Assembly (NCBI GenBank): GCA_018674655.1
Contig: JABGZQ010000056.1
Coordinates: 1-37,525, forward strand
Reading direction: 5' to 3'
From: Fidelibacterota bacterium
Lineage (GTDB): Bacteria; Fidelibacterota; Marinisomatia; Marinisomatales; TCS55
DNA length: 37,525 nt
This document shows, in pieces, positions 15,491-36,404 of this stretch. The notes beneath the pieces are model-generated. The model saw only the letters and a list, made by a program, of their open reading frames with translations, searched no databases and had not been told where the DNA came from. Positions within the stretch are counted from its first letter, which is position 1. Every line of letters starts with the position of its first letter. Made by a program: the position numbers and the translations under genes.

Positions 15491-15913
15491 TTAATTAATT
15501 AGGCGTTGTATTCCTTTTAAATAACCTATTTTTCCTAATCCGGAAATTTGATCAAGACATACATCCTTAATGACCGAAATTTCCCGAAAATCTTCCCGAG
15601 TATTAATATCACTTAAATGAACTTCCACGGTGGGAACGTTTATAGCTGAGATGGCATCACGTATGGCATAGGAATAATGGGTGAATGCGCCAGGATTAAT
15701 AACGATACCGCCCACATTACCCATGGCACCGTGGATGAAGTCAATGAGTTCACCCTCATGGTTGGACTGAAACCAGGTGATGGAATGCCCATCTGATTCC
15801 GGTTGATCGTTTAACCAATTCTCAATATCAGATAATGATTCGCTACCATAGATATCTGGTTCACGAATACCAAGTAAATTCAAATTAGGCCCATTGATAA
15901 TAAGTATTTTCAA
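15491..15913 (-). CDS. aroQ: 3-dehydroquinate dehydratase, type II
   Basis: A 140-residue type II dehydroquinase, the dodecameric small form, converting 3-dehydroquinate to 3-dehydroshikimate. Motifs: NGPNLNLLGIREPDIYG with catalytic Tyr22, WFQSNHEGELID, VINPGAFTHYSYAIRDA (carrying the active-site Asn) and VEVHLSD with catalytic His near 101. It is the last gene of the minus-strand aromatic operon, overlapping the aroB stop by four bases (ATGA). Its stop is immediately next to the argH stop, with no space for a conventional terminator between the convergent units. Confidence 0.96.
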   Translation of the reverse strand: MKILIINGPNLNLLGIREPDIYGSESLSDIENWLNDQPESDGHSITWFQSNHEGELIDFIHGAMGNVGGIVINPGAFTHYSYAIRDAISAINVPTVEVHLSDINTREDFREISVIKDVCLDQISGLGKIGYLKGIQRLIN

Positions 15914-16980
15914 TTGAGCGCCTTCAACGATTCTTGAATTAATTCTTCAGTTACATCTGTAGAGGATAAGGCGTTTCCCAGGCCATCTAATAGTACAAAA
16001 TTCAGGACACCTTTTTCTGATTTTTTATCGGTCTTGATAAATGGCATTAAATGATTTCCGTTTATATGGGATAATTGTGGTAAGGGTAATTGATTAATAG
16101 TCTGGCTCAAAGTTGACAGTTCTTCTTTTGAAAGCAGATTCAGTTTTTGAGAAATAAACCCAGCGCATTTCATACCCAGAGCCACGGCCTCTCCATGACG
16201 AATTTTTCCATAACCTAAGTGAGATTCAAGAGCATGTCCAATTGTGTGGCCAAAATTAAGGATGCGTCGCAGATCACCTTCCCGCTCATCTTTAGAAACA
16301 ACTTCTGCCTTGATTTTACAGGATTTACGAATGGCGTCTTCAAAAGGGAAAGAATCAATGTTTTCCAACCAGGTGGATATATCAATTAAAAAGGCTTTAT
16401 TCCAAATTGCGCCATATTTTATAACTTCACCCAACCCGGAAAAGACTTCTTCTTGGGGAAGGGTTTGTAAAATATCTGGATCAACTATTACGCCTTGTGG
16501 TTGATATATCGACCCGACAAGGTTTTTCCCCTCGGCGATATTGATTCCGGTCTTTCCGCCAATGGAAGAATCTACCATGGCCAATAATGTTGTTGGGATT
16601 TGGTAATAGTCTATTCCACGCATAAACGTTGAAGATAAAAAGCCTGCTACATCTCCAACAACGCCACCCCCAAGGGCCAAAATATTTGTTTTTCGATCAC
16701 AGCTAAACTCAACCATCTGACTGATAACACGACTAAACTCATTGAGGCTTTTGGCTGCTTCCCCTATAGGTAGGGTGATGAATTCACAATCAAACCCCGA
16801 CGCTTTCAAATTATTTACGAGATCAAACCCAAATAATTCCATTAATCGATATTGAGAAATCACAATCCATTTTTGGCCCTCATTATTATCGGAAAGAATA
16901 GAGGGGACATGATTCAAAAGGCCCGATTCTACGTGAATAGGGTATGATCGTTCTTCAAGGTTTACTTGGATTGTATTCAT
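15910..16980 (-). CDS. aroB: 3-dehydroquinate synthase
   Basis: A 356-residue NAD- and metal-dependent enzyme converting DAHP to 3-dehydroquinate. Motifs: LALGGGVVGDVAGFLSSTFMRG (NAD-binding), IPTTLLAMVDSSIGGKTGIN, LVGSIYQPQGVIVDP, GLGEVIKYG and RRILNFGHTIGHALE (metal-binding His). Length is normal. The ATG overlaps the aroK stop by one base and the end overlaps aroQ by four, so it is translationally coupled within the operon. Confidence 0.97.
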   Translation of the reverse strand: MNTIQVNLEERSYPIHVESGLLNHVPSILSDNNEGQKWIVISQYRLMELFGFDLVNNLKASGFDCEFITLPIGEAAKSLNEFSRVISQMVEFSCDRKTNILALGGGVVGDVAGFLSSTFMRGIDYYQIPTTLLAMVDSSIGGKTGINIAEGKNLVGSIYQPQGVIVDPDILQTLPQEEVFSGLGEVIKYGAIWNKAFLIDISTWLENIDSFPFEDAIRKSCKIKAEVVSKDEREGDLRRILNFGHTIGHALESHLGYGKIRHGEAVALGMKCAGFISQKLNLLSKEELSTLSQTINQLPLPQLSHINGNHLMPFIKTDKKSEKGVLNFVLLDGLGNALSSTDVTEELIQESLKALN

Positions 16981-17477
16981 TAATTGATTTGATTATAAAT
17001 ATTAATTGCCACTTCTTCGGCGGTGCTTTGATTCGTATTTACGGAAAAATGACAAGTGTCTTTATATAAGTTTTCTCGATCAGCCCATAATCGGCTTAAT
17101 TCGTTTTCTACTTCTTTACCACCCAGCAAGGGTCTATCTATTACAGATTGGAGGCGTTTTGCCAATACCGGGATTGATGTATCTAAAAAAATCACTTTTC
17201 CTGAAGAAGCAAGTTGATTTCGATTCGTTTGATTTAATACAATGCCACCACCACAGGCAGCGACCACATTAGAATTCTCGATTGTCTCCAATACCTCAGA
17301 TTCTAACTGTCGAAATCGTGATTCTCCATCTTCTGTAAAAATTTCTGAAATTGTTTTATGGGCTTTCACTTCTATATAGTGATCTATATCTAAAAAAGGG
17401 ATCTCTAATTTTTTTGAAAGTATTTTACCGACTGTTGATTTGCCAGAACCCATCATACCAATTAAATAAATATTCAT
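16980..17477 (-). CDS. aroK: Shikimate kinase
   Basis: A 165-residue kinase phosphorylating shikimate at the 3-OH. The start is set at the ATG at 17477, overlapping the aroC stop by one base (TAATG) and giving MNIYLIGMMGSGKST with the P-loop at residues 7-15; the frame extends 31 codons further upstream but that stretch is aroC sequence in another phase. Other marks: FLDIDHYIE (shikimate-binding Asp), ESRFRQLE, AACGGGIVL and the lid region RPLLGG. Length is typical for AroK. Confidence 0.96.
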   Translation of the reverse strand: MNIYLIGMMGSGKSTVGKILSKKLEIPFLDIDHYIEVKAHKTISEIFTEDGESRFRQLESEVLETIENSNVVAACGGGIVLNQTNRNQLASSGKVIFLDTSIPVLAKRLQSVIDRPLLGGKEVENELSRLWADRENLYKDTCHFSVNTNQSTAEEVAINIYNQIN

Positions 17478-18637
17478 TAATATTTTGCTGTTGCTTTCAG
17501 GTGCGCTTTTAGTTGATCCATGGAATCGCCACCAAATTTTTCTAATAATGCATCTGCCAAAACGAAACACAGCATGGTTTCTGCAATTATAGACGCCGCT
17601 GGTACGGCGCAGGAATCGGTTCGCTCTTTATGGGCATCCTTTTCATTTTTTGAATTAATATCAACAGAGCGAAGGGGTTTGATCAATGTAGGAATCGGTT
17701 TCATCGCCATTCGCAATAAAATGGGTTGAGCATTACTCATGCCACCTTCAATACCACCGGCATTATTAGAATAACGAGTGTACTTTTCACCATCATGCCC
17801 GATTTCATCGTGGACTTCACTACCAAACTTTCTTGCATCACCAAACCCACCGCCGATCTCAATCCCCTTGAATGCATTTACACTCATCATTAAAGCGGTA
17901 ATGCGAGCGTGTAATTTTCTATCCCATTGTGTATAAGATCCGAGACCATAGGGCAGTCCAGTGGCAATCACTTCAAAAACACCGCCAACGGAATCCCCTG
18001 CTTTTTTTGCATCATCGATTGTTTTGACCATTGCGGCCTCTGCTTCTTTATCTAGGCATCGAACAGAGGAGGCATCCGCCCTTTTACTTAGCTGATTCGG
18101 GTTAAGGTTATTCGGGACTATGCTTTCATCTTTCACATCATGAATCTCCAAAACTCGACTTCCCACTTCTACACCCACATCCTCTAAGAGTTTTCTGCAG
18201 ATGGATCCCAATGCAACTCGCATGGTTGTTTCTCGGGCGCTGGATCGTTCTAGCACATTTCGAATATCGTCAAACCCATATTTTTGAATACCGGCTAAAT
18301 CTGCATGGCCGGGCCGGGGGACTGTCACTTTATGAATATCCTCATTTACAGCTGAAATAGACATTTTTTTTGTCCAGTTTTCCCAATCTTTGTTTCGAAC
18401 GATAAGTCCTGTCGGTGTTCCCAGCGTTTCACTATGTCTTACACCGCACCAGATTTCCGCATGGTCTTTTTCGATATTCATTCGTCCACCACGACCATGG
18501 CCCATTTGTCTCCGTTCCAATTGAACACCAATATATTCTTCTGAGATTTCCAACCCCGCTGGTATACCATCCAAGATTCCTAAAAGGCCTTGCCCATGAG
18601 ATTCCCCTGCGGTTAAAAACTTTAATCGAGTTAACAT
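17477..18637 (-). CDS. aroC: Chorismate synthase
   Basis: A 386-residue FMN-dependent enzyme converting EPSP to chorismate. Family signatures: GESHGQGLLGILDGIPAG, RRQMGHGRGGRMNIEKD, GVRHSETLGTPTG, RPGHADLAG, RSSARETTMRVALGS and the C-terminal HKERTDSCAVPAASII. Length is slightly above E. coli AroC and typical of other bacteria. The start ATG lies seven bases inside aroE. Confidence 0.97.
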   Translation of the reverse strand: MLTRLKFLTAGESHGQGLLGILDGIPAGLEISEEYIGVQLERRQMGHGRGGRMNIEKDHAEIWCGVRHSETLGTPTGLIVRNKDWENWTKKMSISAVNEDIHKVTVPRPGHADLAGIQKYGFDDIRNVLERSSARETTMRVALGSICRKLLEDVGVEVGSRVLEIHDVKDESIVPNNLNPNQLSKRADASSVRCLDKEAEAAMVKTIDDAKKAGDSVGGVFEVIATGLPYGLGSYTQWDRKLHARITALMMSVNAFKGIEIGGGFGDARKFGSEVHDEIGHDGEKYTRYSNNAGGIEGGMSNAQPILLRMAMKPIPTLIKPLRSVDINSKNEKDAHKERTDSCAVPAASIIAETMLCFVLADALLEKFGGDSMDQLKAHLKATAKY

Positions 18638-19416
18638 AATACTGTATCTAATTCCTTTTTAATCGGTTCCAATTTAATTCTTTCTGAAATCTTATCTTTA
18701 AACCAAATATCCGCAGATGCCAACCCCTGTGCAATAAACATATCTAGTCCACCCACAGTTTTAGCACCAAACTTTTGTCCTGCTTTTAACCACGCAGTCT
18801 CTATGGGGTTATAAATTGTATCTACCAAAACTTGATTAGGTGTGATATCAAGATCAGGCATAGGCTCTGTATCTGGCCACATACCTACAGGGGTGCAATT
18901 AATAACAATATCTGGATCATTAGTTGATGTTGGGTTGGGGTAAAAAGATTGCACCCAATCTAATAATTGCGCTGCTTTTTCTTGTGTACGGTTTTTTATA
19001 GAAATAGACTTTACGCCATTGTTAGCTAAAGCAAAAGCTATTGCTCTTGCAGCACCCCCAGCGCCAAGGATTAAACAATTTTTACCCTTTAATTCTATAT
19101 GGTTTAAATCCATGGCTATTAAAAACCCAATCCAGTCAGTATTAAACCCCTTTCCGTTATGAACACAATTCACAGCACCAATAATTTTTGCAGATTCATC
19201 TAATTTATTCAAAAATGGAATCACCGATTGTTTATGTGGAATGGTCACATTGAAACCATCCAATTCATTTGAATTTATGAATGAATGAAGATTGTTAGGA
19301 TGAATATGGATTCTCTCAAAAGAGGCTATTAGATTAAGTTGCCGAAAAACTTCATTATGAATAGTTGGACTTAAACTATGGGCAATGGGGTCTCCGATTA
19401 CAGCAAAGGTCTTCAT
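18631..19416 (-). CDS. aroE: Shikimate dehydrogenase
   Basis: A 261-residue NADP-dependent enzyme reducing 3-dehydroshikimate to shikimate. Motifs: GDPIAHSLSPTIHN (substrate-binding Ser residues), NVTIPHKQSV with the catalytic Lys, LGAGGAARAIAFAL (Rossmann dinucleotide-binding) and INCTPVGMWP. Length is near the usual 270. It overlaps aroA by four bases and aroC by seven. Confidence 0.96.
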   Translation of the reverse strand: MKTFAVIGDPIAHSLSPTIHNEVFRQLNLIASFERIHIHPNNLHSFINSNELDGFNVTIPHKQSVIPFLNKLDESAKIIGAVNCVHNGKGFNTDWIGFLIAMDLNHIELKGKNCLILGAGGAARAIAFALANNGVKSISIKNRTQEKAAQLLDWVQSFYPNPTSTNDPDIVINCTPVGMWPDTEPMPDLDITPNQVLVDTIYNPIETAWLKAGQKFGAKTVGGLDMFIAQGLASADIWFKDKISERIKLEPIKKELDTVLC

Positions 19417-20660
19417 GATTGTAAACGATCCAACTCTTTATAGAACTCTGGATAAGAAATGGAAACGCATTCAGGATGGTCTAAAACCACATCACCTTCA
19501 GATACGAGTCCGGCGATTGTAAATGCCATGGCGATACGATGGTCATGAAATGTTTCAATTTCAGCACCATTTAATGGTGTTGGACCATTGATGATAAATC
19601 CATCATCCAATTCTTCAATCTCTGCACCCATTTTATTCAGGTTGACGCACAGAGCATGGATTCTGTCACATTCTTTGATCCTTAATTCTTCAGCGCCACG
19701 AACTATTGTTTTTCCATTGGCTTGAGTCGCGAGAACTGCAATAACAGGCAACTCATCAATTAATCCGGGGACTTCATCTTTTGTGATGGTAATACCCTTC
19801 ATCGGTTGATAAGAAATATTCAAATTCCCAATCGTTTCACCAGCTTCTTCCCATTGTTCAAGATACTTTACATTGATGCCCATGCTTCCAAGTGCCCGAA
19901 AAACCCCAATTCTTGTTGGGTTTATTAAAATGCAATTCAATTGTATATCAGAATGTGATACCAAGGCTGCTGCTGCGGCAAAAAATGCAGCAGTGGAAGG
20001 ATCACCAGGAACAGATAATTTAAAGGGTGTAAGGGGAGACATTAAATTTGAAACAGCGGTCGTTAATCCATCAATTGAAACTTTTCCCCCAAGACCGTCC
20101 AACATTTTTTCTGTATGATTTCTAGATAAAATTGGCTCGGCAATTGACGTTTTACCTTTGGCGCCAAGACCCGCTAATATCACAGCAGATTTCACTTGGG
20201 CGCTGGCAACCGGAGATTCATAATGGATACCACACAACGTACTTTTATTAATTGTGATTGGTAATTTTCCATTTTTGCTTTCTGATTTTAATCCCATCTG
20301 AGAAAGTGGATCTAAAATACGATCCATTGGTCGAGATGATAATGAGTCATCTCCAACGAATGTGGCGTTAATACCTTGACCTGACAAGAGTCCTAATAAT
20401 AATCGTGTGGTTGTGCCGGAATTGCCGCAGTTTAATGGTTGATCTGGATCAATATAATCACCACCCTGAAGGATAACATCATTTTTGTTATCCTCAATTA
20501 TGACACCACAGGCTTCTAAACATTTTCGAGTAGTCTGAACATCGGCACCGGTAGACAAATTGGAAATCCGTGATTCTCCACCAGCTAAAGATGCTAGCAT
20601 AAGTGCCCGGTGGGAGATAGATTTATCTCCCGGCAATGATATTTTTCCTCTAATGGCCAT
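19413..20660 (-). CDS. aroA: 3-phosphoshikimate 1-carboxyvinyltransferase (EPSP synthase)
   Basis: A 415-residue enzyme transferring enolpyruvate from PEP to shikimate-3-phosphate. Motifs: [77 protein letters not shown] and [14 protein letters not shown]. The family is usually 425-445 residues; the N-terminus is short but intact through the PGDKS motif. The start lies 11 bases inside the DAHP synthase gene. Confidence 0.96.
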
Positions 20661-21999
20661 TTGTTTTTAGTTCATCTGCAATAAGGAAAGCCAGTTCAAT
20701 GGCTTGATTTGCATTTAGTCGTGGGTCACAATGGGTGCGATATCTATCGGATAAATCCGATTCAGAAATATCAGCTAACCCACCGGTACATTCGGTTACA
20801 TTTTGTCCCGTCATTTCCAAATGTATACCACCAGCGTGGGATCCTTCTCCTCGGTGAATTTGGATATTTTGTTTCACCTCATCCAATATTTGACTGAATG
20901 GGCGTGTTTTTATTCCATTACTACTTTTGATTGTGTTTCCATGCATAGGATCACATGACCATATAACTGTACGGCCTTCTTCCTGTACTTTTCGAATCAG
21001 GGAAGGTAGAATAGATTCAATTTTATTACTTCCAAATCTCGTAATTAACGTAATCCGGCCCGCCTCATCATTTGGATTCAAAATATCTAATAATTGGATG
21101 AGTTCATCTGGATCCATAGTTGGCCCGCATTTAATACCAATGGGGTTTTGAATCCCCCGGCAAAACTCTACATGAGCACTTTCTGCGAACCGAGTTCTAT
21201 CTCCTATCCATACAAAGTGTGCGGATGTATTATAAATATCTCCGGATGTAGAATCGATTCTTGTTAATGCTTCTTCATAGGGCAGGAGGAGCGCTTCATG
21301 GCTTGTAAAATATTTAACCCGACGAAGTTGAGGTGTATTAGAGGAATGAATACCCAGGGCTTCCATAAAATTCAGACTTTCTTGAACTTGATCTGCTAAA
21401 TGGCGGTAACGTTCTCCTTGAGGGCCGCTTTTTACAAAGCCCATATTCCATGATTGTACATGTCGAAGATCTGCATACCCGCCATCGGCAAAAGCTCTCA
21501 GTAAATTCAATGTAGAGGCAGCTTGAGAATAGGCTTTCAACATTCGCTCAGGATTGGGAATTCTTTTTTCTTTATGGAACTGTATGTCATTTATAATATC
21601 GCCAGTATAACTGGGGAGTTCAACACCATCAATTGTTTCTGTGGGACAAGATCGGGGCTTGGCAAATTGGCCAGCCATACGCCCAATTCTTACAACGGGC
21701 ATATTTGTACCATTTGTTAATATCACGGCCATTTGGAGAATAACGCGAAAAGTATCTCGAATGTGATCAGCATGAAATTCAGAAAAACTTTCGGCACAAT
21801 CACCTCCCTGTAGCAAGAACCCATTTCCTTCTGTTACTTCAGCCAATGTTCTCTTTAAGGAACGAACTTCGCCCGCAAAAACCAGAGGTGGAAAACCTTG
21901 AAGCGTTCTAACCACTTCTTTTAAATGATTTTGATCTGGATAATCAGGTAAATGTTTTATAGTAAAATTTCTCCAACTATCTGTTTGCCATGGAGTCAT
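20650..21999 (-). CDS. 3-deoxy-7-phosphoheptulonate (DAHP) synthase, class II
   Basis: A 449-residue plant/mycobacterial-type (class II) DAHP synthase, catalysing the entry step from PEP and erythrose-4-phosphate. Marks: [30 protein letters not shown] (metal-binding Cys), [43 protein letters not shown] and [15 protein letters not shown]. It is shorter than plant enzymes because it lacks a transit peptide. No separate regulatory domain is visible, so feedback control may rest on the leader attenuator. It overlaps tyrA by four bases. Confidence 0.95.
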
Positions 22000-22724
22000 G
22001 ATTGTAATTCCTTTAAGCGATTATCCAAAGTATTCGTTGATTCTTTCAAATTCATAATCATTTTTTTTGTATAGGGATTATATAATTGCAAATCAGTGTA
22101 TAGCTCCCAACTATCATTACAGGTTTGGTCAACCAAATCTAATAGATCTCGAAATCCCTGTGTATCAATTGACGTTTTTTTAATGCCAAACTCTTTTAGC
22201 ATTCGCCCTAGAAAATGGGTAACGCCTTGGGTTTGTGCTGCCATTCGATCATGGTCATCAGCTGTCATTTCAAGAACTTGTATTCCTTGGTCTACAAAAA
22301 ATCTTTTCCAGAAATCAAATTGGTTATGAGAGTCTCTCGTTTTATCCATCATCATTTTCAAGCGATTATTTGTTATAAAAGAATCAGGGCCAAACAGAGG
22401 ATGAGTTGCAATGATACCTATTTTTTCCGATAAATGTTTTTCCATGACTTCCACAGGGTGTTTTTTCACAGAACAGACATCAATGATGGTTGTACCATTA
22501 GAAAGTTTTGGTGAAATAGATTTGATTATTGATTCAAAATGACGAATGGGTACAGCTACAAATATTGCTTTTTCTTTTAATAAATCATCCAATTCAACAA
22601 AGGTTACATTGGGGAATAGCTTCGGGGAAGAAAGGTCAAACGCTTTGATGGAAAATCCTTTTTGAAGAATATTGGCCAAAACTTTACCAAAACGGCCAAA
22701 CCCTATTATGCCAACGCTATTCAT
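21996..22724 (-). CDS. tyrA: Prephenate/arogenate dehydrogenase, plant-like
   Basis: A 242-residue oxidoreductase for tyrosine synthesis. The N-terminal Rossmann motif [16 protein letters not shown] is followed by [34 protein letters not shown] (active-site His) and the C-terminal helical part [12 protein letters not shown] with [19 protein letters not shown]. The pattern resembles the compact plant arogenate dehydrogenase domain rather than the longer bacterial TyrA with an ACT domain. Whether it uses prephenate or arogenate, NAD or NADP, cannot be settled by reading. It overlaps the pheA-like gene and the DAHP synthase gene by four bases each. Confidence 0.88.
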
Positions 22725-23293
22725 GAATCTCCCAATTTTTTCACCCCAAGAAATAGGGTCAGGTTATGTTTTAAATCATGGATGCTTTCTTGGAGAATAT
22801 CCAATTCGTATAAATCTGCACAGGCTTTATTCGCAATTACACCTGCGGTAGAAGGGAGTTTCCCTTCTGACAGTCGTCTTGCAGCCTCAGCCGTATCATC
22901 TTCTTCAATCAGTGGTCGCGTCCAAAAATGTTCACTCAAGTAATCCTTACATTGACGAAGTGCTTGTTGATGGGAATGGATTTCTGTGATATCACCCACA
23001 TGAGTCCCTACAAGTCCAAGAAGGTTTTGATCTACTGCAATATGGAACATCTCAAGGATGTCGCAACGATATTTTGCAAGCGCTTCAACACTTTCAATCA
23101 CGACGCCACCTTGTGCATTCTCCATAGCAAAAATGCCATAATCGGTATTCCCGGATTCTACCCCGGCCAATACTTGTTCAGATGAAATCTGGTATACGAT
23201 TTTGGCGCCTTCTATTCCGTGATTATGGGCAAACTCGTGAGCGGCCTGTTCGGAGAAGCTTCCTTTCCCGCCCTGAATTCCTATTGTAATCAT
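22721..23293 (-). CDS. pheA: Prephenate dehydratase-like protein, no ACT domain
   Basis: A 190-residue protein with the periplasmic-binding-like prephenate dehydratase fold: GIQGGKGSFSEQAA at the start, DYGIFAMENAQGGVV where typical enzymes have PIENSxxG, and NLTLF at 177-181 where the family has the catalytic TRF. The Thr is kept but the Arg is Leu. It ends directly after this motif, so the usual 80-residue ACT domain that senses phenylalanine is missing. Position as first gene of the aromatic operon supports a role in phenylalanine synthesis; a divergent active site or a narrower role is possible. The ATG at 23293 is 36 bases downstream of the leader terminator. Confidence 0.75.
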   Translation of the reverse strand: MITIGIQGGKGSFSEQAAHEFAHNHGIEGAKIVYQISSEQVLAGVESGNTDYGIFAMENAQGGVVIESVEALAKYRCDILEMFHIAVDQNLLGLVGTHVGDITEIHSHQQALRQCKDYLSEHFWTRPLIEEDDTAEAARRLSEGKLPSTAGVIANKACADLYELDILQESIHDLKHNLTLFLGVKKLGDS

Positions 23294-23329: not shown

Positions 23330-23359
23330 AAAAAAAAACCCCGATCAAAGCCGGGGTTT
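23330..23359 (-). terminator. Intrinsic terminator in aromatic operon leader
   Basis: Read on the minus strand, AAACCCCG (23359-23352) pairs with CGGGGTTT (23343-23336) across an 8-base loop, and the stem runs into nine T (complement of 23338-23330). It stands between the leader peptide and the first operon gene, which makes it an attenuator rather than an end-of-gene terminator. Confidence 0.92.
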
Positions 23360-23404
23360 CAAAGCAGTCAACATGTACAGGTCTCCCTGGGACTACAAAA
23401 CCCC
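23330..23404 (-). promoter_or_regulatory. Tyr/Phe-responsive attenuator: antiterminator versus terminator
   Basis: On the minus strand GGGGTTTT (23404-23397), the last sense codons of the leader peptide, can pair with GAAACCCC (23360-23353), the 5' arm of the terminator: seven Watson-Crick pairs plus one G-U. The looped-out segment has its own hairpin, AGTC/GACT closing CAGG-GAGA-CCTG with a GNRA-type tetraloop. A ribosome stalled at the Tyr/Phe codons leaves the antiterminator free to form; one that reaches the stop covers it and the terminator forms. No convincing 1:2 protector stem was found, unlike the arginine leader. Confidence 0.82.
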
Positions 23405-23452
23405 TTCGCGGCTAAAAAACCGATACAAGCTATAATAATTTTCTTTGTTCAT
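23393..23452 (-). CDS. Tyr/Phe-rich leader peptide of the aromatic operon
   Basis: A 19-codon ORF, MNKENYYSLYRFFSREGVL, with Tyr at 6, 7 and 10 and Phe at 12 and 13. The operon it precedes makes exactly these two amino acids. The stop (TAG) is 33 bases before the terminator hairpin, and the last codons (GGG GTT TTG) form the antiterminator strand. No SD precedes the ATG; the region upstream is short. The design parallels the pheA leader of enteric bacteria, but with mixed Tyr and Phe codons. A regulatory, not structural, role is inferred. Confidence 0.88.
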   Translation of the reverse strand: MNKENYYSLYRFFSREGVL

Positions 23453-23469: not shown

Positions 23470-23499
23470 ATATTAAGACAGGGTTTCATCAGATACCAA
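23470..23499 (-). promoter_or_regulatory. Candidate promoter of the aromatic operon
   Basis: On the minus strand TTGGTA (23499-23494) and TAATAT (23475-23470) are separated by 18 bases, resembling sigma-70 -35 and -10 boxes. Transcription would begin about ten bases before the leader-peptide ATG. The boxes lie just past the chorismate mutase stop, so the operon would be independently transcribed. An alternative -10, TATGAT, lies nearer the ATG and would give an almost leaderless message. Confidence 0.4.
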
Positions 23500-23506
23500 C
23501 CTTATT

Positions 23507-23776
23507 TTATTTCTTTTGCAGTTTTTTTGAAATGTGATATACAGGCCCAAAAATAGCAGAAATATCGTCACGATCTAATTTCCCTTTTAACCGTTCGGTC
23601 AACCGGTCAATAATCTCTCTTTCCCGATTGGGGTCGCCAACCGCTAAATTATTTGATTCTTTTATGGCGCCAATTTGTATAGAAACTGTGAATCGCTTTA
23701 CCAATAGATCTACCATTTGATTATCGCATTCATCGATCATCTCGCGTAGATGGTTGATTTTTTCCTTTGAATCCAT
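23507..23776 (-). CDS. Chorismate mutase, AroQ class
   Basis: An 89-residue all-helical chorismate mutase converting chorismate to prephenate, the substrate of the two genes downstream. Visible features match the AroQ fold: helix 1 with LREMIDECDNQMVDLLVKRF (conserved Arg and the Asp-xx-Ile/Leu pattern), then VSIQIGAIKESN, and helix 2 with DPNREREIIDRLTERL. The start is put at the second Met (MDSKEKINHLREMID); an ATG seven codons upstream is also possible and neither has an SD. It lies upstream of, but apart from, the attenuated operon, separated by the candidate promoter and leader. Confidence 0.9.
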   Translation of the reverse strand: MDSKEKINHLREMIDECDNQMVDLLVKRFTVSIQIGAIKESNNLAVGDPNREREIIDRLTERLKGKLDRDDISAIFGPVYHISKKLQKK

Positions 23777-23858
23777 GAAAAAAAGTACACAAGCCATTTG
23801 CTGGGGTGAAACGTTTTTTAATGTAATTTCCGCCCCGTTATTTTAGCCACGAATAAAG

Positions 23859-31143: not shown

Positions 31144-31791
31144 ATGAATTATCTTGAAAAGTTACATGATGCTGTTTTGAATGGCAATCCTACGATAGCC
31201 GTGGAAATTACGGAAAAAGCGCTTAGGGAAAAAATTGACCCACATATATTGATCAATGAATATATGATTCGGGCCATGGATGAAGTGGGAGTACGGTTCG
31301 AGCGTTTTGAATATTTTATTCCACAGCTACTTATGTCAGCGAAAGCCATGAAAAGCGCTATGGCTTTGATACGTCCGCTTCTTATAAGTGAAGGTGAGGA
31401 AGACAATTCTATATGCGCCATAACCGGAACGGTAAAAGGCGATGTCCATGATATTGGAAAAAATTTATTGGGGGCACTTTTAGAGGGCGGCGGGTTTCGA
31501 GTGGTAGACTTAGGTACCAATGTTTCCCCTGAACAATTTATTGAAGCAGTTGAAACACACAAAGCAAAACTGGTGTGTATGTCTGCATTATTAACCACGA
31601 CCATGCCAGGAATGAAAACAACAATTGATGCATTTAAGGATGCAGGCATAAGAGATGAAGTGATTATGCTGGTTGGTGGCGCACCTGTTACGCATCATTT
31701 TGCAAAAGATATTGGCGCCGATGGATATAAGGATAATGCAAGTGCAGGCGTCGTATTGGCAAAAAAATTACTCGGTGTTGGGCAAAAATGA
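31144..31791 (+). CDS. Corrinoid (B12-binding) methyltransferase protein, MtbC/MtgC-like
   Basis: A 215-residue corrinoid carrier that shuttles a methyl group between methyltransferases. Residues about 1-85 form the B12-binding-2 cap helices (KLHDAVLNGNPTIAVEITEKAL, FIPQLLMSAKAMKSAM). Residues about 88-215 are the B12-binding Rossmann domain with the axial-ligand motif DVHDIG (His102), then the GGGFRVVDLGTNV, MSALLTTTM and VGGAPVT signatures. Length is typical of MttC, MtbC and MtgC proteins. It overlaps the DUF1638 gene by four bases, and a RACE activator follows, so the three form one unit with the MttB-family gene 3 kb away. Confidence 0.95.
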   Translation: MNYLEKLHDAVLNGNPTIAVEITEKALREKIDPHILINEYMIRAMDEVGVRFERFEYFIPQLLMSAKAMKSAMALIRPLLISEGEEDNSICAITGTVKGDVHDIGKNLLGALLEGGGFRVVDLGTNVSPEQFIEAVETHKAKLVCMSALLTTTMPGMKTTIDAFKDAGIRDEVIMLVGGAPVTHHFAKDIGADGYKDNASAGVVLAKKLLGVGQK

Positions 31792-32534
31792 ACTTCAAAT
31801 TAATTAGTTGTGAAGTGTTCAAACATGAATTGCTTCATTGTATCAATAAATCCAATAATAATATTGATACTGAATTTATTGCCAAAGGTATCCACGATTT
31901 AAATAGTAAGGGTATGCAGAATCGAATTGTTAAATCCATTCAAAAAGCAGATCAAAAAAGGTTTGATGCAATTCTGTTGGGATATGGTCTTTGCAATACA
32001 TGGATATATGGGTTGGTCGCCCACAAAACGCCACTTATTGTTCCCCGAATCCACGACTGTATTGGCGTTCTTTTTGGAAGCAAACAAAAGTATTTGGATT
32101 ATTATTTTGAAAACCCCGGGACCTATTATCAATCGGTGGGGTGGATGGAAAATACAGAAAACAAACCAATCATTAAAAAAAGATCATTGCAAAGACTGTA
32201 TGGAATGGATATGCCCCAGGATGAACTTAAAGCGCAATTTGGTGAAGAAAATTTAGATTACCTGAATAATGCAATGGATCAGATAAAGCATTATTCAAAT
32301 ATGGCATTTATTGATACGGGGTTGGATTCCCAACATAATTATCAAAAGAAGGCGATGGCGAAAGCAGAAATAAAGAATTGGAGTTTTGATGTTTTAAAAG
32401 GGAGTAAAAAACTCCTTCAACAACTTATTAATGGAGATTGGCCTGAATCAGAGTTTCTTGTTGTGAAGCCGGGGAGCAAGGTAGAACAATCTGTTGGTGA
32501 AGATTTAATGACCGCTGTCCCATTAATATTTTAA
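31788..32534 (+). CDS. DUF1638 family protein
   Basis: A 248-residue protein starting in the ATGA overlap with the corrinoid gene. It matches the DUF1638 pattern: an N-terminal ISCEVFKHEL, ILLGYGLCNTWIYGL with a Cys near 69, IVPRIHDCIGVLFGSKQKYL with His-Asp-Cys near 89-91, and NPGTYYQSVGWMEN. The conserved Cys and His could bind a metal or cofactor. The family is known as a frequent neighbour of corrinoid proteins and MttB-type methyltransferases; no function is established to my knowledge. Context suggests a part in methyl transfer, corrinoid handling or cofactor delivery. Confidence 0.88.
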   Translation: MNFKLISCEVFKHELLHCINKSNNNIDTEFIAKGIHDLNSKGMQNRIVKSIQKADQKRFDAILLGYGLCNTWIYGLVAHKTPLIVPRIHDCIGVLFGSKQKYLDYYFENPGTYYQSVGWMENTENKPIIKKRSLQRLYGMDMPQDELKAQFGEENLDYLNNAMDQIKHYSNMAFIDTGLDSQHNYQKKAMAKAEIKNWSFDVLKGSKKLLQQLINGDWPESEFLVVKPGSKVEQSVGEDLMTAVPLIF

Positions 32535-32546
32535 CAATTATTTTTG

Positions 32547-34070
32547 ATGGCTAAAAAAGTCAGTATCACCTTATTGCCTTTAAATCAAAGTTTCGAGGTT
32601 GCAAAAGATTCTCAACTCCACGATATACTTTTTAGTTATGGTGTAGAATTCCCCTGTGGTGGTCATGCCAGATGCAGAGGATGCCGCATTCGGATAAAAG
32701 AAGGCCATTTACCCATTACAGATTCCCAGAAAAATATCCTGGATGATAAGGAATTGAATGAAGGATGGCGTCTTGCATGCGAAGGAAGAGTTCAAGATGA
32801 TCTAATAATTGAATTGGATCAATGGAAATCCGATGTATTGTCGGATGATTCAGATTTTCAATTTTCACCTATGCATGGGTTTGGGGTCGCCATCGATTTG
32901 GGTACCACAACTTTGGCTGCCCAATTGGTAAATAGGGAAACAGGTGAAGTGTTGGCTATAGAAACCGCCATTAATCCTCAGGCCAAGTATGGTAGTGATA
33001 TAATGACGAGGATTGATGCAGCATCCAGATTAGTAAAACAGAATGAAATGCAGTTGCTCATTCGATCGAAAATAAATGATATGATTATTGATTTATTTCA
33101 CAGTTCGAATGAAAATATTTCAAGATTGAAACGCATCATTATCGTTGGGAATGCAGTAATGCATAATATTTTTTGCGGGATAGATGTGGAACCCATGGGG
33201 TATCATCCGTTTGAGCCAGTTTCAAATGATCTGGAATTATATACACCTTCAGAATTGAGGTGGGATTTGAATGAAGATGTAACTATAGAGTTTCTCCCGG
33301 GTGTAGGCAGCTTTATTGGGAGTGATATCTTAATTGGTGTGTGGGCAAAAAAGATAATAGAAAGTGATGGCATTAAGGTATTGGTGGATTTGGGCACTAA
33401 TGGCGAAATCATGGTTGGGAATAAAGATAAATTTTTGGCTGCATCTACAGCTGCGGGTCCAGCTTTTGAAGGTGCGGGGATATCTATGGGTATGCGTGCG
33501 GCAACAGGTGCTATCTCCACCGTTATGACGAGGAATGGTGAAATAATTCCAAAAGTATTGGGGTCTGAAAAAGCAAGGGGGATATGCGGTAGCGGACTTG
33601 TGGATGCGATTTCTGCTTACTTGGATGACGGATCTATCAAGGCGGACGGTAGATTTTTAAATGGAGAATCTATTATGGTTATGGATCCGGTGGTGATTAC
33701 CCAAAAGGATATACGAGAGCTCCAGTTGGCCAAAGGAGCTATTGCTACAGGGATTCGATTATTATTAAAAGAGTTTAATGCGGAAGAAAAAGATGTATCG
33801 GAAGTGTATTTATCCGGAGCATTTGGGAATTATATCAGTAAGCGTAGTGCCAGAAGGATTGGTCTTTTAAACTTTCCGCAGAAAAAAATAACAACGGCAG
33901 GTAACACAGCCTTACTTGGGGCAAAAATGGCTTTATTTAACAAAAGCAAAATAAATAATTTTTATGAAATTAGAGAAAAAACAACACACCTTGATTTAAG
34001 TATGCATCCAGATTTTACAGATATTTTTGCAGAATTGGTGAACTTCCCTATAAAAAGGGAAATGGTTTAG
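32547..34070 (+). CDS. RACE-type corrinoid reductive activator (2Fe-2S plus ASKHA domain)
   Basis: A 507-residue ATP-dependent activator that returns inactive cob(II)alamin to cob(I)alamin. The start is ATG 32547, preferred over TTG three bases earlier. Residues about 4-85 are a ferredoxin-like domain with Cys37, Cys43, Cys46 and Cys78, the CX5CX2C plus distal Cys pattern of 2Fe-2S RACE proteins. The rest is the DUF4445/ASKHA ATPase: GVAIDLGTTTLAAQLV, VGNAVMHNIF, VLVDLGTNGEIMVG, STAAGPAFEGAGI and RGICGSGLVDAISAYL, VYLSGAFGNYI. This type serves O-demethylase and glycine-betaine methyltransferase systems, in place of the SAM/flavodoxin reactivation of MetH. The end overlaps the opposing homocysteine methyltransferase gene by four bases. 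Confidence 0.94.
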   Translation: MAKKVSITLLPLNQSFEVAKDSQLHDILFSYGVEFPCGGHARCRGCRIRIKEGHLPITDSQKNILDDKELNEGWRLACEGRVQDDLIIELDQWKSDVLSDDSDFQFSPMHGFGVAIDLGTTTLAAQLVNRETGEVLAIETAINPQAKYGSDIMTRIDAASRLVKQNEMQLLIRSKINDMIIDLFHSSNENISRLKRIIIVGNAVMHNIFCGIDVEPMGYHPFEPVSNDLELYTPSELRWDLNEDVTIEFLPGVGSFIGSDILIGVWAKKIIESDGIKVLVDLGTNGEIMVGNKDKFLAASTAAGPAFEGAGISMGMRAATGAISTVMTRNGEIIPKVLGSEKARGICGSGLVDAISAYLDDGSIKADGRFLNGESIMVMDPVVITQKDIRELQLAKGAIATGIRLLLKEFNAEEKDVSEVYLSGAFGNYISKRSARRIGLLNFPQKKITTAGNTALLGAKMALFNKSKINNFYEIREKTTHLDLSMHPDFTDIFAELVNFPIKREMV

Positions 34071-34948
34071 TGTTCTTTTAAAGTTTCGGATAATAGTTTT
34101 ATATATGCAGGTGTTGAACCGCAACACCCACCCAATATTTTAATCCCCATTTTATATATTTCAACCATTCCATCTACAAACTGTTCTGCCGTTTGACCAT
34201 AATGAACAGTATTTCCTTCAAGAACCGGTTGACCTGCGTTGGGTTTAATGGATAAGGGTAAATCAGTAAGCGTTAAGGCTTCTTCAGCTAATTCAATTAG
34301 CTCAAAACTATCTAAATTACAATTGGTGCCTATAATATCAGCACCGGCATCTGTCAGTTTATTCACGCATTCTGACAATGGGTTACCCATGACAGTAAAA
34401 TATCCATTATCTGTTTTTGCATAAGTCATATTTGCAATGATGGATTTATTACTGACTTGTCGGATTGCTTTTACTGCAAGAACCGCTTCTTGAAGATCAA
34501 TCATTGTTTCCACACTAAATAGGTCTACACCGCTGTCTTCCAATATTTCCGCTTGGCGATTGAATGCATTTTTCAATTCATCGGGCTTGGCAGGCCCCAA
34601 GGGTTCAATCAATAAACCGGATGGGCCAATATCTCCAGATACCAAAGAATCTCCACCATAATTCCGGCAAATTTCAACGGCTTTTTGATTCACCAAATCA
34701 TGATGTTCTGCAATTCCGCATTCCTTCAGCCGATAATGAGAGGCACCAAAAGTATTCGTTTGTAAAATATCACTCCCGGCTTCATGATATAATTGATGTG
34801 CTTTACCAATGCGTTCCGGGTATTTCATAGACCATTCTTCCGGTGGTTGTCCGGAATGGAGCCCCATATCCATGAGCAAGGACCCCATGGCGCCGTCCAA
34901 TAAAACAGGCCCTACTTTCAATCGATCTTTAAGTGATTTTGGTGGCAT
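34067..34948 (-). CDS. Homocysteine S-methyltransferase, MetH-like stand-alone domain
   Basis: A 293-residue protein of the homocysteine-binding (S-methyltransferase) family. It starts at ATG 34948, seven bases after the MttB-family stop; the frame extends upstream 16 codons but overlaps mttB. Zinc ligands are visible: Cys210 in GTNCNLDS and Cys275-Cys276 in GGCCGS. Other marks are LLDGAMGSLLMDMGL, DILQTNTFGAS and SGDIGPSG. The sequence resembles the N-terminal module of cobalamin-dependent MetH more than betaine-homocysteine methyltransferase. Downstream MetH modules are absent, so it would have to accept its methyl group from another protein, plausibly the corrinoid carrier encoded nearby. 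Expected product is methionine. Confidence 0.9.
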   Translation of the reverse strand: MPPKSLKDRLKVGPVLLDGAMGSLLMDMGLHSGQPPEEWSMKYPERIGKAHQLYHEAGSDILQTNTFGASHYRLKECGIAEHHDLVNQKAVEICRNYGGDSLVSGDIGPSGLLIEPLGPAKPDELKNAFNRQAEILEDSGVDLFSVETMIDLQEAVLAVKAIRQVSNKSIIANMTYAKTDNGYFTVMGNPLSECVNKLTDAGADIIGTNCNLDSFELIELAEEALTLTDLPLSIKPNAGQPVLEGNTVHYGQTAEQFVDGMVEIYKMGIKILGGCCGSTPAYIKLLSETLKEH

Positions 34949-34955
34949 GCAAAAG

Positions 34956-36404
34956 TTATAATATAGTAGGAAGTGTTTCAGAACCCGCAATACCATTATT
35001 TATTATGGTACGAAGTTCTTTATCTATATGATCACCAATAGGGGATTCATTGTATTGGTCTAATAAATTTTGGATTGTTTCCCTCGCCCTGTCTTGCAAT
35101 GTTTTGCTCCCAAATTGTTTCCATTGATCCCAACTGGTTCGGTCTATCATAGGTCCCGGTAGATACAATTCTTTTGGCCAATATTCTAACGTGTGATCCA
35201 TGGTGCATATTTGCTGTTCGACCAGAACTTCATCAATGAAAGGTTTTATGGGAAGATCATCCTTGATTTTAATATCGCGCATAAAATGATGTGCATGCCC
35301 GCAGATTTCATCATCAAATACTAATTTTTCCAAACTGAAGCAGTTGACAAAATCCAACATCCCTGGTCCAGCCACTTGATTCATCCGACTCATGGCTGCG
35401 ATATAGGCGCCGCTGGCGGTTTCTGATCCTGCTTGGGGATCATTAAATTTCCCATCCCCTAACCCCATATAGCCTTGTGAAGGAATTTTTAAGTGGCGTG
35501 CAATTTGAGCATAGCCACTATAGAGTTGTAATGCCTCTACACCGGACATGGGTGCACTCATGAGTTGCATATGAAAAGCGCCTGGGGCACCACCAAATAT
35601 TACTGGGGCACCGGATTTTATCAGTTGTGTAAAAACAATTCCGCTTAATACTTCAGCCGTTTGCATGACCAATGCACCAACTGTAGTTACAGGTACAGCC
35701 AAACCAATCATGAGCACAGGAACCACTTCTACAACAATACCGTTTTCAACACAGTCAATCAAATTATGGCTGGAATCTAAACCCCACCGTAAGGGGCTGT
35801 TGGGGCAGCAGGTAAATACAGCCATTGGTTTTTCGATTAAATCATTTTTATCTTTGCGGAAACAGGTCATCATTTCAGCCATTCTATTCACACCATGGTG
35901 AGTAAATGCGCCGGTGACAACTGGTTTGCCACTATGTGCCAACATGAGGTAAAGCCGCCAGGCATCGGCAATATCTTGAGGAATATCATCTGTACTAAAT
36001 GCAGAAGCAGGATAAGAAATATGTTTAAGCTGGTCAGCAACTTTAATGTATTCGATAAAATCAGGTGTTTGGGCCGTGCGTCGTTCACCCGTTTTCCAAT
36101 CTAAAATATTTAACGCCGATGAACCTGGCACAAAATGGGTAGAGTCACCGCCAATAGTTGAAAAATGTTCACCACTACGATCATATAAATCAATAATCGA
36201 TGGAAGAGATTTGATACTTTCCTCAACAACACGTTTTGGGAATGTAATGCGGTTAGAATTTTTGTCAACATTTAAACCAGCTGATTCCATCCGTTCCATA
36301 AGTGCATCACATTGGACTTCCACCCCTGTGTCCTGAAGCAGTGATAAAGCTTCATTTATAATATTTTCAACAAGATTGTCTTCGAGTACTTTTAGTTCAA
36401 GCAT
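34956..36404 (-). CDS. MttB superfamily corrinoid methyltransferase, non-pyrrolysine
   Basis: A 482-residue TIM-barrel methyltransferase of the trimethylamine methyltransferase (MttB) superfamily. Marks: LLQDTGVEVQCDALMERM, FVPGSSALNILDWKTGERR, TFTHHGVNRM, CCPNSPLRW, IFGGAPGAFHMQL and the region PQAGSETASGAYIAAMSRMNQVAG. It is complete without any in-frame amber codon, so it is not a Pyl-containing MttB. It belongs to the non-Pyl branch, whose known members demethylate glycine betaine, proline betaine, carnitine or butyrobetaine; the substrate here is unknown. ATG 36404 is preceded by AGAAGGAG, a strong SD. It lies 25 bases after an FAD oxidoreductase and 7 bases before the homocysteine methyltransferase. 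Confidence 0.93.
   Translation of the reverse strand: MLELKVLEDNLVENIINEALSLLQDTGVEVQCDALMERMESAGLNVDKNSNRITFPKRVVEESIKSLPSIIDLYDRSGEHFSTIGGDSTHFVPGSSALNILDWKTGERRTAQTPDFIEYIKVADQLKHISYPASAFSTDDIPQDIADAWRLYLMLAHSGKPVVTGAFTHHGVNRMAEMMTCFRKDKNDLIEKPMAVFTCCPNSPLRWGLDSSHNLIDCVENGIVVEVVPVLMIGLAVPVTTVGALVMQTAEVLSGIVFTQLIKSGAPVIFGGAPGAFHMQLMSAPMSGVEALQLYSGYAQIARHLKIPSQGYMGLGDGKFNDPQAGSETASGAYIAAMSRMNQVAGPGMLDFVNCFSLEKLVFDDEICGHAHHFMRDIKIKDDLPIKPFIDEVLVEQQICTMDHTLEYWPKELYLPGPMIDRTSWDQWKQFGSKTLQDRARETIQNLLDQYNESPIGDHIDKELRTIINNGIAGSETLPTIL

Follow-up and report, generated by a model that had tools for sequence, protein, structure and literature searches.

We hold with good confidence that an attenuator found throughout the Fidelibacterota, translated without an untranslated 5' leader, uses one peptide to read Tyr, Trp and Phe and governs a complete aromatic superoperon, and that its codons are re-tuned to the genes it controls: Trp codons decay after trp loss, and a split of the operon leaves one Trp leader and one Phe/Tyr leader. 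The leader in the window would be a reduced end state of this series. It is highly probable that this leader is a ribosome-mediated transcription attenuator for aromatic biosynthesis whose Phe/Tyr specificity derives from an ancestral Tyr/Trp/Phe leader. The window, meaning the whole 37,525-nucleotide stretch of DNA that was analysed, is contig 72 of a 2.1-Mb genome (91% complete). Its phylum, formerly Candidatus Neomarinimicrobiota, Marinimicrobia or SAR406, belongs to the FCB group in the NCBI taxonomy.

The leader and operon in the window

Nine genes in the order pheA-tyrA-DAHP synthase-aroA-E-C-K-B-Q follow a short aromatic-rich ORF and an intrinsic terminator (Table 1). A preliminary description made from the window alone had placed ORF, terminator and operon correctly; all lie on the minus strand. 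Its statement that the first operon enzyme lacks an ACT domain agrees with the domain content of that protein. It had started the leader peptide at the second ATG, giving 19 residues; this ORF is present, but judged from the sequence the 22-residue version is likelier because its ATG lies 8 nt downstream of the TAATAT box.

Table 1. Leader and operon features in the window, listed in the direction of transcription.
Feature	Position	Strand	Basis
Chorismate mutase gene, upstream of the leader promoter	23507..23797	-	PF01817
Promoter-like site: -35 TTGGTA (23499-23494), 18-nt spacer, -10 TAATAT (23475-23470)	23470..23499	-	sequence
Leader peptide ORF, MINMNKENYYSLYRFFSREGVL*, 22 codons	23393..23461	-	sequence; kept in relatives
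Alternative shorter leader ORF from ATG 23452, 19 codons		-	sequence
Control codons Tyr-Tyr-Ser-Leu-Tyr-Arg-Phe-Phe	23414..23437	-	sequence and comparison with relatives
TTG and CGG at the positions holding TGG (Trp) in trp-bearing relatives	23428-23426; 23422-23420	-	
Antiterminator 5' strand GGGGTTTTGTAGTC: last codons, stop codon and two further bases	23391..23404	-	covariation
Small inner hairpin CAGG-GAGA-CCTG within the antiterminator	23378..23389	-	comparison
Antiterminator 3' strand GACTGC...AAACCCC	23353..23369	-	covariation and stalled-ribosome folds
Intrinsic terminator GAAACCCCGGCTTTGATCGGGGTTT, T9 tract 23338-23330	23330..23360	-	sequence and folding
pheA-type prephenate dehydratase without ACT domain, first structural gene past the leader	22721..23293	-	PF00800, residues 4-186 of 190
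tyrA-type prephenate dehydrogenase	21996..22724	-	PF02153
Class II DAHP synthase	20650..21999	-	PF01474
aroA, aroE, aroC, aroK, aroB, aroQ (remaining shikimate pathway)	15491..20660	-	PF00275, PF08501, PF01264, PF01202, PF01761/PF24621, PF01220

The end of the ORF can pair with the terminator: GGGGTTTT (23404-23397) is able to pair with AAACCCC (23359-23353), which is common to the antiterminator 3' strand and the terminator 5' arm, and the stem continues where GTAGTC (23396-23391) pairs with GACTGC (23369-23364). Each folded in isolation, the antiterminator reaches -20.7 kcal/mol and the terminator -13.4 kcal/mol. The minimum-energy fold of the window leader alone, a check proposed in the preliminary description, proved unimpressive (z = -1.3; 26 of 200 shuffles, or 13%, were equally stable); the window sequence by itself is therefore no proof of an attenuator, and the comparison of relatives carries the case instead.

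In the mechanism we propose, RNA polymerase would start at or beside the leader AUG with a ribosome following. When charged tRNA-Tyr or tRNA-Phe is scarce, this ribosome would stall at the Tyr or Phe codons and leave the ORF end (GGGGUUUUGUAGUC) free to pair with GACUGC...AAACCCC, so that the terminator would be blocked and the nine-gene Phe/Tyr/shikimate operon transcribed. With both tRNAs plentiful, a ribosome at the stop codon would cover the ORF end, the terminator would form and transcription would stop.

Elsewhere in the window (31144-36404), genes that by eye resemble those for corrinoid proteins, a ferredoxin-like activator, and homocysteine and trimethylamine methyltransferases lie on both strands.

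Conservation and covariation of the leader across the phylum

The window pheA was compared with 40 genomes of the same family, 19 of which matched: the window's own genome, 17 close relatives and one distant one. Same-family relatives with a readable leader region carry an aromatic-rich leader ORF and a terminator upstream of either pheA or trpE. With 15 same-family leaders as its basis, a covariance model matched 98 of 245 genomes in the phylum at E <= 0.1, with 26 at E < 1e-12 that span three families. Many of the weaker matches in family f9 were real leaders on inspection and others were not aromatic leaders; the weak matches L080, L137, L138 and L139 were rejected as resembling ordinary terminators, and the one at L083 belongs to a leader of another kind, described below. 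The regions upstream of trpE in deeper families yielded additional leaders, and the final dataset comprises 70 leaders with their downstream genes, 22 of them from one genus-level group, in genomes that are all uncultured and mostly MAGs. The ORF, its codon content, the pairing of the ORF end and the terminator recur in more than ten families. Within the 1.5 kb examined, no leaders were found before separate pheA loci in deep families, and no leader was detected at the trp-bearing loci of L104/G157 and G155.

Across this dataset the ORF end and the terminator arm fit each other within individual leaders. Summed pairing of each ORF end with its own terminator arm amounted to -549 kcal/mol, compared with -403 +/- 16 kcal/mol for permuted partners, and 0 of 20,000 permutations of a set with one leader per genus were as good (one leader per family also gave 0 of 20,000); the mean was -18.9 kcal/mol within a leader versus -13.7 kcal/mol for mismatched partners. 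The pairing of the ORF end with AAACCCC, already proposed in the preliminary description, is thus supported by covariation. In the window-type set, 92.8% of antiterminator cells pair versus at most 48% when the strands are slid, and the compensatory changes include a stop codon change from TAG to TAA that is matched on the other strand. The inner hairpin has 88.9% of its cells paired in the alignment, and two of its pairs have changed on both sides.

When the complete leader was folded to equilibrium with ribosome masks, the outcome was mixed, since such folds take no account of the antiterminator being able to form before the terminator 3' arm exists; they were replaced by folds of a transcript cut after the terminator 5' arm. 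In these predicted folds, the ORF end keeps hold of the terminator arm in 64 of the 70 leaders when a ribosome is stalled midway in the aromatic run; the antiterminator was not predicted in G156 and was short in G032 and G198. The freeing of the arm by a ribosome at the stop codon follows from masking the ORF end, which is an assumed geometry and not a free prediction.

The relatives therefore bear out the attenuator reading: they have the ORF, they keep the Tyr and Phe codons, and the segments 23397-23404 and 23353-23360 covary. Three observations had been named in advance as speaking against an attenuator, namely homologous loci in close relatives lacking the ORF, random replacement of the Tyr/Phe codons and lack of covariation between these segments, and none of the three checks refuted it. 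The leaders combine three features of this class of mechanism, an ORF with end-product codons, an intrinsic terminator before the first gene, and a covarying antiterminator that overlaps the ORF end; a fourth, relief of termination when the charged tRNAs run short, is predicted for them. A plain terminator of the chorismate mutase gene, next to an ORF that is aromatic-rich by chance, would account for a terminator placed downstream of that gene, as well as for a window leader fold no better than about 13% of shuffles. We give this explanation almost no weight, as a promoter-like site lies between chorismate mutase and terminator, and it is contradicted by conservation across the phylum, including loci where chorismate mutase is not upstream of the leader.

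A TAATAT-like box ends 6-9 nt upstream of the leader start in 55 of the 70 leaders, against an expectation of 6.4 and a maximum of 19 among 200 shuffles; a Shine-Dalgarno-like core is found in one of the 70. With ordinary spacing the transcript would start at, or one or two bases from, the leader AUG, which makes leaderless translation of the ORF probable.

Several observations on neighboring loci were made during this survey. Complete trp-phe-tyr-aro superoperons in L104, L144 and L146 (JASMKZ record/G157, G155; family f16) have no leader that could be found before trpE, and G156, from the same genus, does carry one (EFWWY). Two contigs labelled Gammaproteobacteria (L118, L119) contain a pheA 61-67% identical to that of the window, with no leader detected, possibly through transfer or as misbinned contigs; in L119 the gene lies downstream of a chorismate-mutase-like ORF. 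In L185 (G045), L184 (G046) and L186 (G043), prephenate dehydrogenase and dehydratase share one frame of 466-470 residues, an apparent tyrA-pheA fusion, followed by AroA. A TPP riboswitch (RF00059, 62 bits) lies on the opposite strand near the G142 leader (L082:2267-2365). On the minus strand of G033 contig 8 (L083:15684-15830), a Lys-rich leader (MNYKTDKSTLIKNIKRRKTFNKKWYL) with a GGGG segment and a terminator precedes a lysW-like gene and a LysX-like ORF (names by eye); it is a candidate for an attenuator different from the aromatic ones, and a lysine leader of this kind would be unusual in itself.

Parallel loss of Trp codons and trp genes

In most relatives the gene order is chorismate mutase, leader, trpEGDCFBA, pheA, tyrA, DAHP synthase and aroA-E-C-K-B-Q, which is seven trp genes beyond the window. 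The leader peptide of this superoperon mixes Trp with Tyr and Phe codons, reading NYYSWYWFF in many genomes; other Trp-bearing stretches include SFYSWFWFYF, FSIWYWYF, KFNNWCWY, RFWGYYWYF, CYYWWFF, FFYYWWF and EFWWY. Among the 70 leaders, Trp codons are present in all 37 that precede trp genes and absent from 28 of the 31 without trp genes, an association that is strong before any correction for ancestry (p = 4.5e-16, Fisher's exact test). The exceptions are G039, with one Trp codon and no trp genes, and G027 and the JABMOV contig, each with a single Trp codon located after the last Phe/Tyr codon; two genomes with trp deletion remnants have leaders that still hold one or two Trp codons. Genome searches found no trpA in the window's genome or in the other trp-less leader genomes searched. 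The Phe/Tyr leader of the preliminary description was accordingly right in kind and too narrow in scope, being a reduced form of the Tyr/Trp/Phe leader of a trp-containing operon.

Codon content also varies with operon content in other ways. The small genomes of family f9 carry two leaders, KTWKWYF ahead of the trp operon and another (FNYYYFYF, FYNYYFYF and similar) ahead of chorismate mutase, DAHP synthase, aro, pheA and tyrA; Trp codons occur in 0 of the 17 compiled leaders of the latter kind. G032, where trp, DAHP synthase and aro genes occur without pheA, has a leader (WWYNY) that lacks a Phe codon, while G045 has only trp genes behind a leader whose control stretch, NRWWKN, contains no Tyr. 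Trp-only leaders hold 1-4 Phe and Tyr codons, compared with mostly 5-8 in superoperon leaders (p = 0.0012; four versus 27 leaders, not corrected for ancestry). In one genome of this survey (L121, G081), trpA contains several stops behind an intact KTWKWYF leader, possibly a fresh loss or the result of sequencing errors.

A rival reading is an arrest of the TnaC type, in which the nascent peptide senses a free aromatic amino acid and not uncharged tRNA. Aromatic residues are often active in arrest peptides, and close relatives share a fairly conserved NYYSWYWFFxxxGVL. Across families, however, neither sequence nor spacing is fixed (IWYW, NNWCWY, WWYNY, YYYFWF, KTWKWYF, FNYYYFYF), and the aromatic content, which alone is kept, tracks the downstream genes. 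Because sequence and spacing vary while aromatic content stays, we favor codon counting and regard peptide arrest as quite improbable.

Within codon counting, the closest relatives keep the Tyr and Phe codons, with changes that are synonymous or between Phe and Tyr; for the lack of other nonsynonymous control-codon changes, the evidence lies in the aromatic columns only, since choosing leaders by pattern makes the Ser and Trp columns partly circular. An attenuator that senses tRNA-Phe alone, with the Tyr codons as passengers, would resemble enteric pheL or AroR of C. glutamicum, and the accessible text on AroR, a Phe-Tyr-Phe leader before aroF, reports a response to Phe and not to Tyr (PMC11802643, PMC4046766). 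The Phe pair is also the closest to the antiterminator strand. We nevertheless think a Phe-only attenuator unlikely: the Tyr codons are as conserved as the Phe codons and come first (YY, Y), the two swap at the same positions, a stall at the Tyr codons frees the antiterminator in the folds, and the operon holds genes for both amino acids. Because AroR, itself a mixed leader, reportedly does not respond to Tyr, Tyr sensing by the window leader is something that we infer, and a dual Phe/Tyr leader is the reading we retain.

The correlation between Trp codons and trp genes could also reflect shared ancestry and not selection on codon content, as a leader is passed on along with its operon, and one genus-level group supplies 22 of the 70 leaders. 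On a ten-gene tree of 31 genomes, the trp state changes 11 times, each change being forced by well-supported branches, and the trp label is scattered over the tree, with no more clustering than after shuffling. In 11 independent pairs, the presence of at least two Trp codons changed with the trp genes in 8.5, against them in 0 and remained unchanged in 2.5 (median sign-test p = 0.004); for at least one Trp codon, the corresponding numbers were 6.5, 0 and 4.5 (p = 0.03). This tree replaced a two-gene tree (PDT+TyrA), which pointed in the same direction with only 5 independent supported pairs, because the latter had too few supported branches. The agreement of independent pairs, with none opposed, and the intermediate leaders of genomes with trp remnants make shared ancestry alone a very improbable explanation.

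The trpE-trpA remnants of G125 and G018 lie directly behind intact leaders. Of the cases grouped under the label INTERMEDIATES (G125, G018 and G026), the G125 leader has both Trp codons and is followed by a truncated trpE joined out of frame to the end of trpA (L140:2850-3100). G018 carries an in-frame trpE'-'trpA remnant of 122 aa (L025:140-620, minus strand) behind a leader with one Trp codon, the other TGG now being GGG, and its trpE-trpA junction differs from that of G125. G026 retains about a dozen trpE codons, and its leader has no Trp codon. In sequence, the three look like successive stages following trp deletion, with assembly error possible for the G125 and G018 fusions. Their ancestor would have been a phylum leader with Tyr, Trp and Phe codons before one superoperon, trpEGDCFBA-pheA-tyrA-DAHPS-aro; once trp genes were lost, Trp codons would decay because stalling there would no longer be corrected by the operon.

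Relation to known attenuators

Ribosome-mediated attenuation is classical (trpL, pheL), and to our knowledge aromatic attenuation has been studied mostly in enterics and Actinobacteria, where a leader is usually tied to a single amino acid. No Rfam family, T-box included, was matched at its gathering threshold by the leader in the window or in the six relatives scanned. The window leader scored 21.1 bits against Phe_leader (RF01859, gathering 55) and 14.6 bits against Trp_leader (RF00513, gathering 41), L021, L065, L081 and L032, with leaders that stand before trpE, gave no Trp_leader match, and matches at lax thresholds were discarded as sub-threshold scores at chance level. The open-access literature, with subscription papers and much comparative-attenuation work outside its scope, contained no trivalent aromatic leader and nothing on Marinimicrobia attenuation. 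As far as could be checked, two things are new: a leader with Tyr, Trp and Phe codons ahead of a complete aromatic superoperon, and the repeated disappearance of codons in parallel with genes.

In this uncultured marine phylum, signals for the entire aromatic family appear to come together in a single leader. The repeated natural gene losses amount to a mutational test of the codon-counting model, in which the matching codons are gone where the genes are gone, and codon content offers a readout, from sequence only, of the amino acids that an attenuator senses. A surplus of Trp codons in a leader marks a fresh loss of trp and may thereby flag a recent amino acid auxotrophy, and the natural variants make the weighing of several stall signals within one leader directly testable.

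The enteric ilvGMEDA attenuator, which exerts multivalent Ile/Val/Leu control, is similar in that one leader serves several end products of a branched pathway and differs in that these are branched-chain amino acids. Candidate attenuator peptides made without a Shine-Dalgarno sequence are known from Actinobacteria, where they concern cysteine or valine control: leaderless cysteine-rich uORFs in mycobacteria (PMC4633059) and, according to the citing text (PMC4046766), the ilvBNC leader of C. glutamicum, which is translated with no ribosome binding site. Within the FCB group, the claim of the preliminary description that no example had been described was too strong, as work on Flavobacterium psychrophilum reports clues to leader-peptide attenuation, in addition to a conserved 5' element with structure that lies upstream of pheA (PMC9723704); that case likewise involves pheA, and differs in that its main text gives clues without an analysis of codons or structure.

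The same description had one peptide reading both Phe and Tyr, for which the conservation of both codon sets speaks, but a mixed Phe/Tyr leader was already known in AroR (Neshat et al. 2014), which also stands over an operon with a DAHP synthase. As far as its accessible descriptions go, AroR differs in belonging to another phylum with a separate trpL for the trp operon, in its reported response to Phe only and in having no link drawn between codon and gene content. E. coli pheL-pheA and trpL-trpEDCBA (RF01859, RF00513) share the arrangement of a leader peptide rich in the end product, an antiterminator over the ORF end, a terminator and biosynthetic genes; in comparison, the Fidelibacterota combine Tyr and Phe (window) or Tyr, Trp and Phe (relatives) in one leader, have no Shine-Dalgarno sequence and place the whole common pathway under its control.
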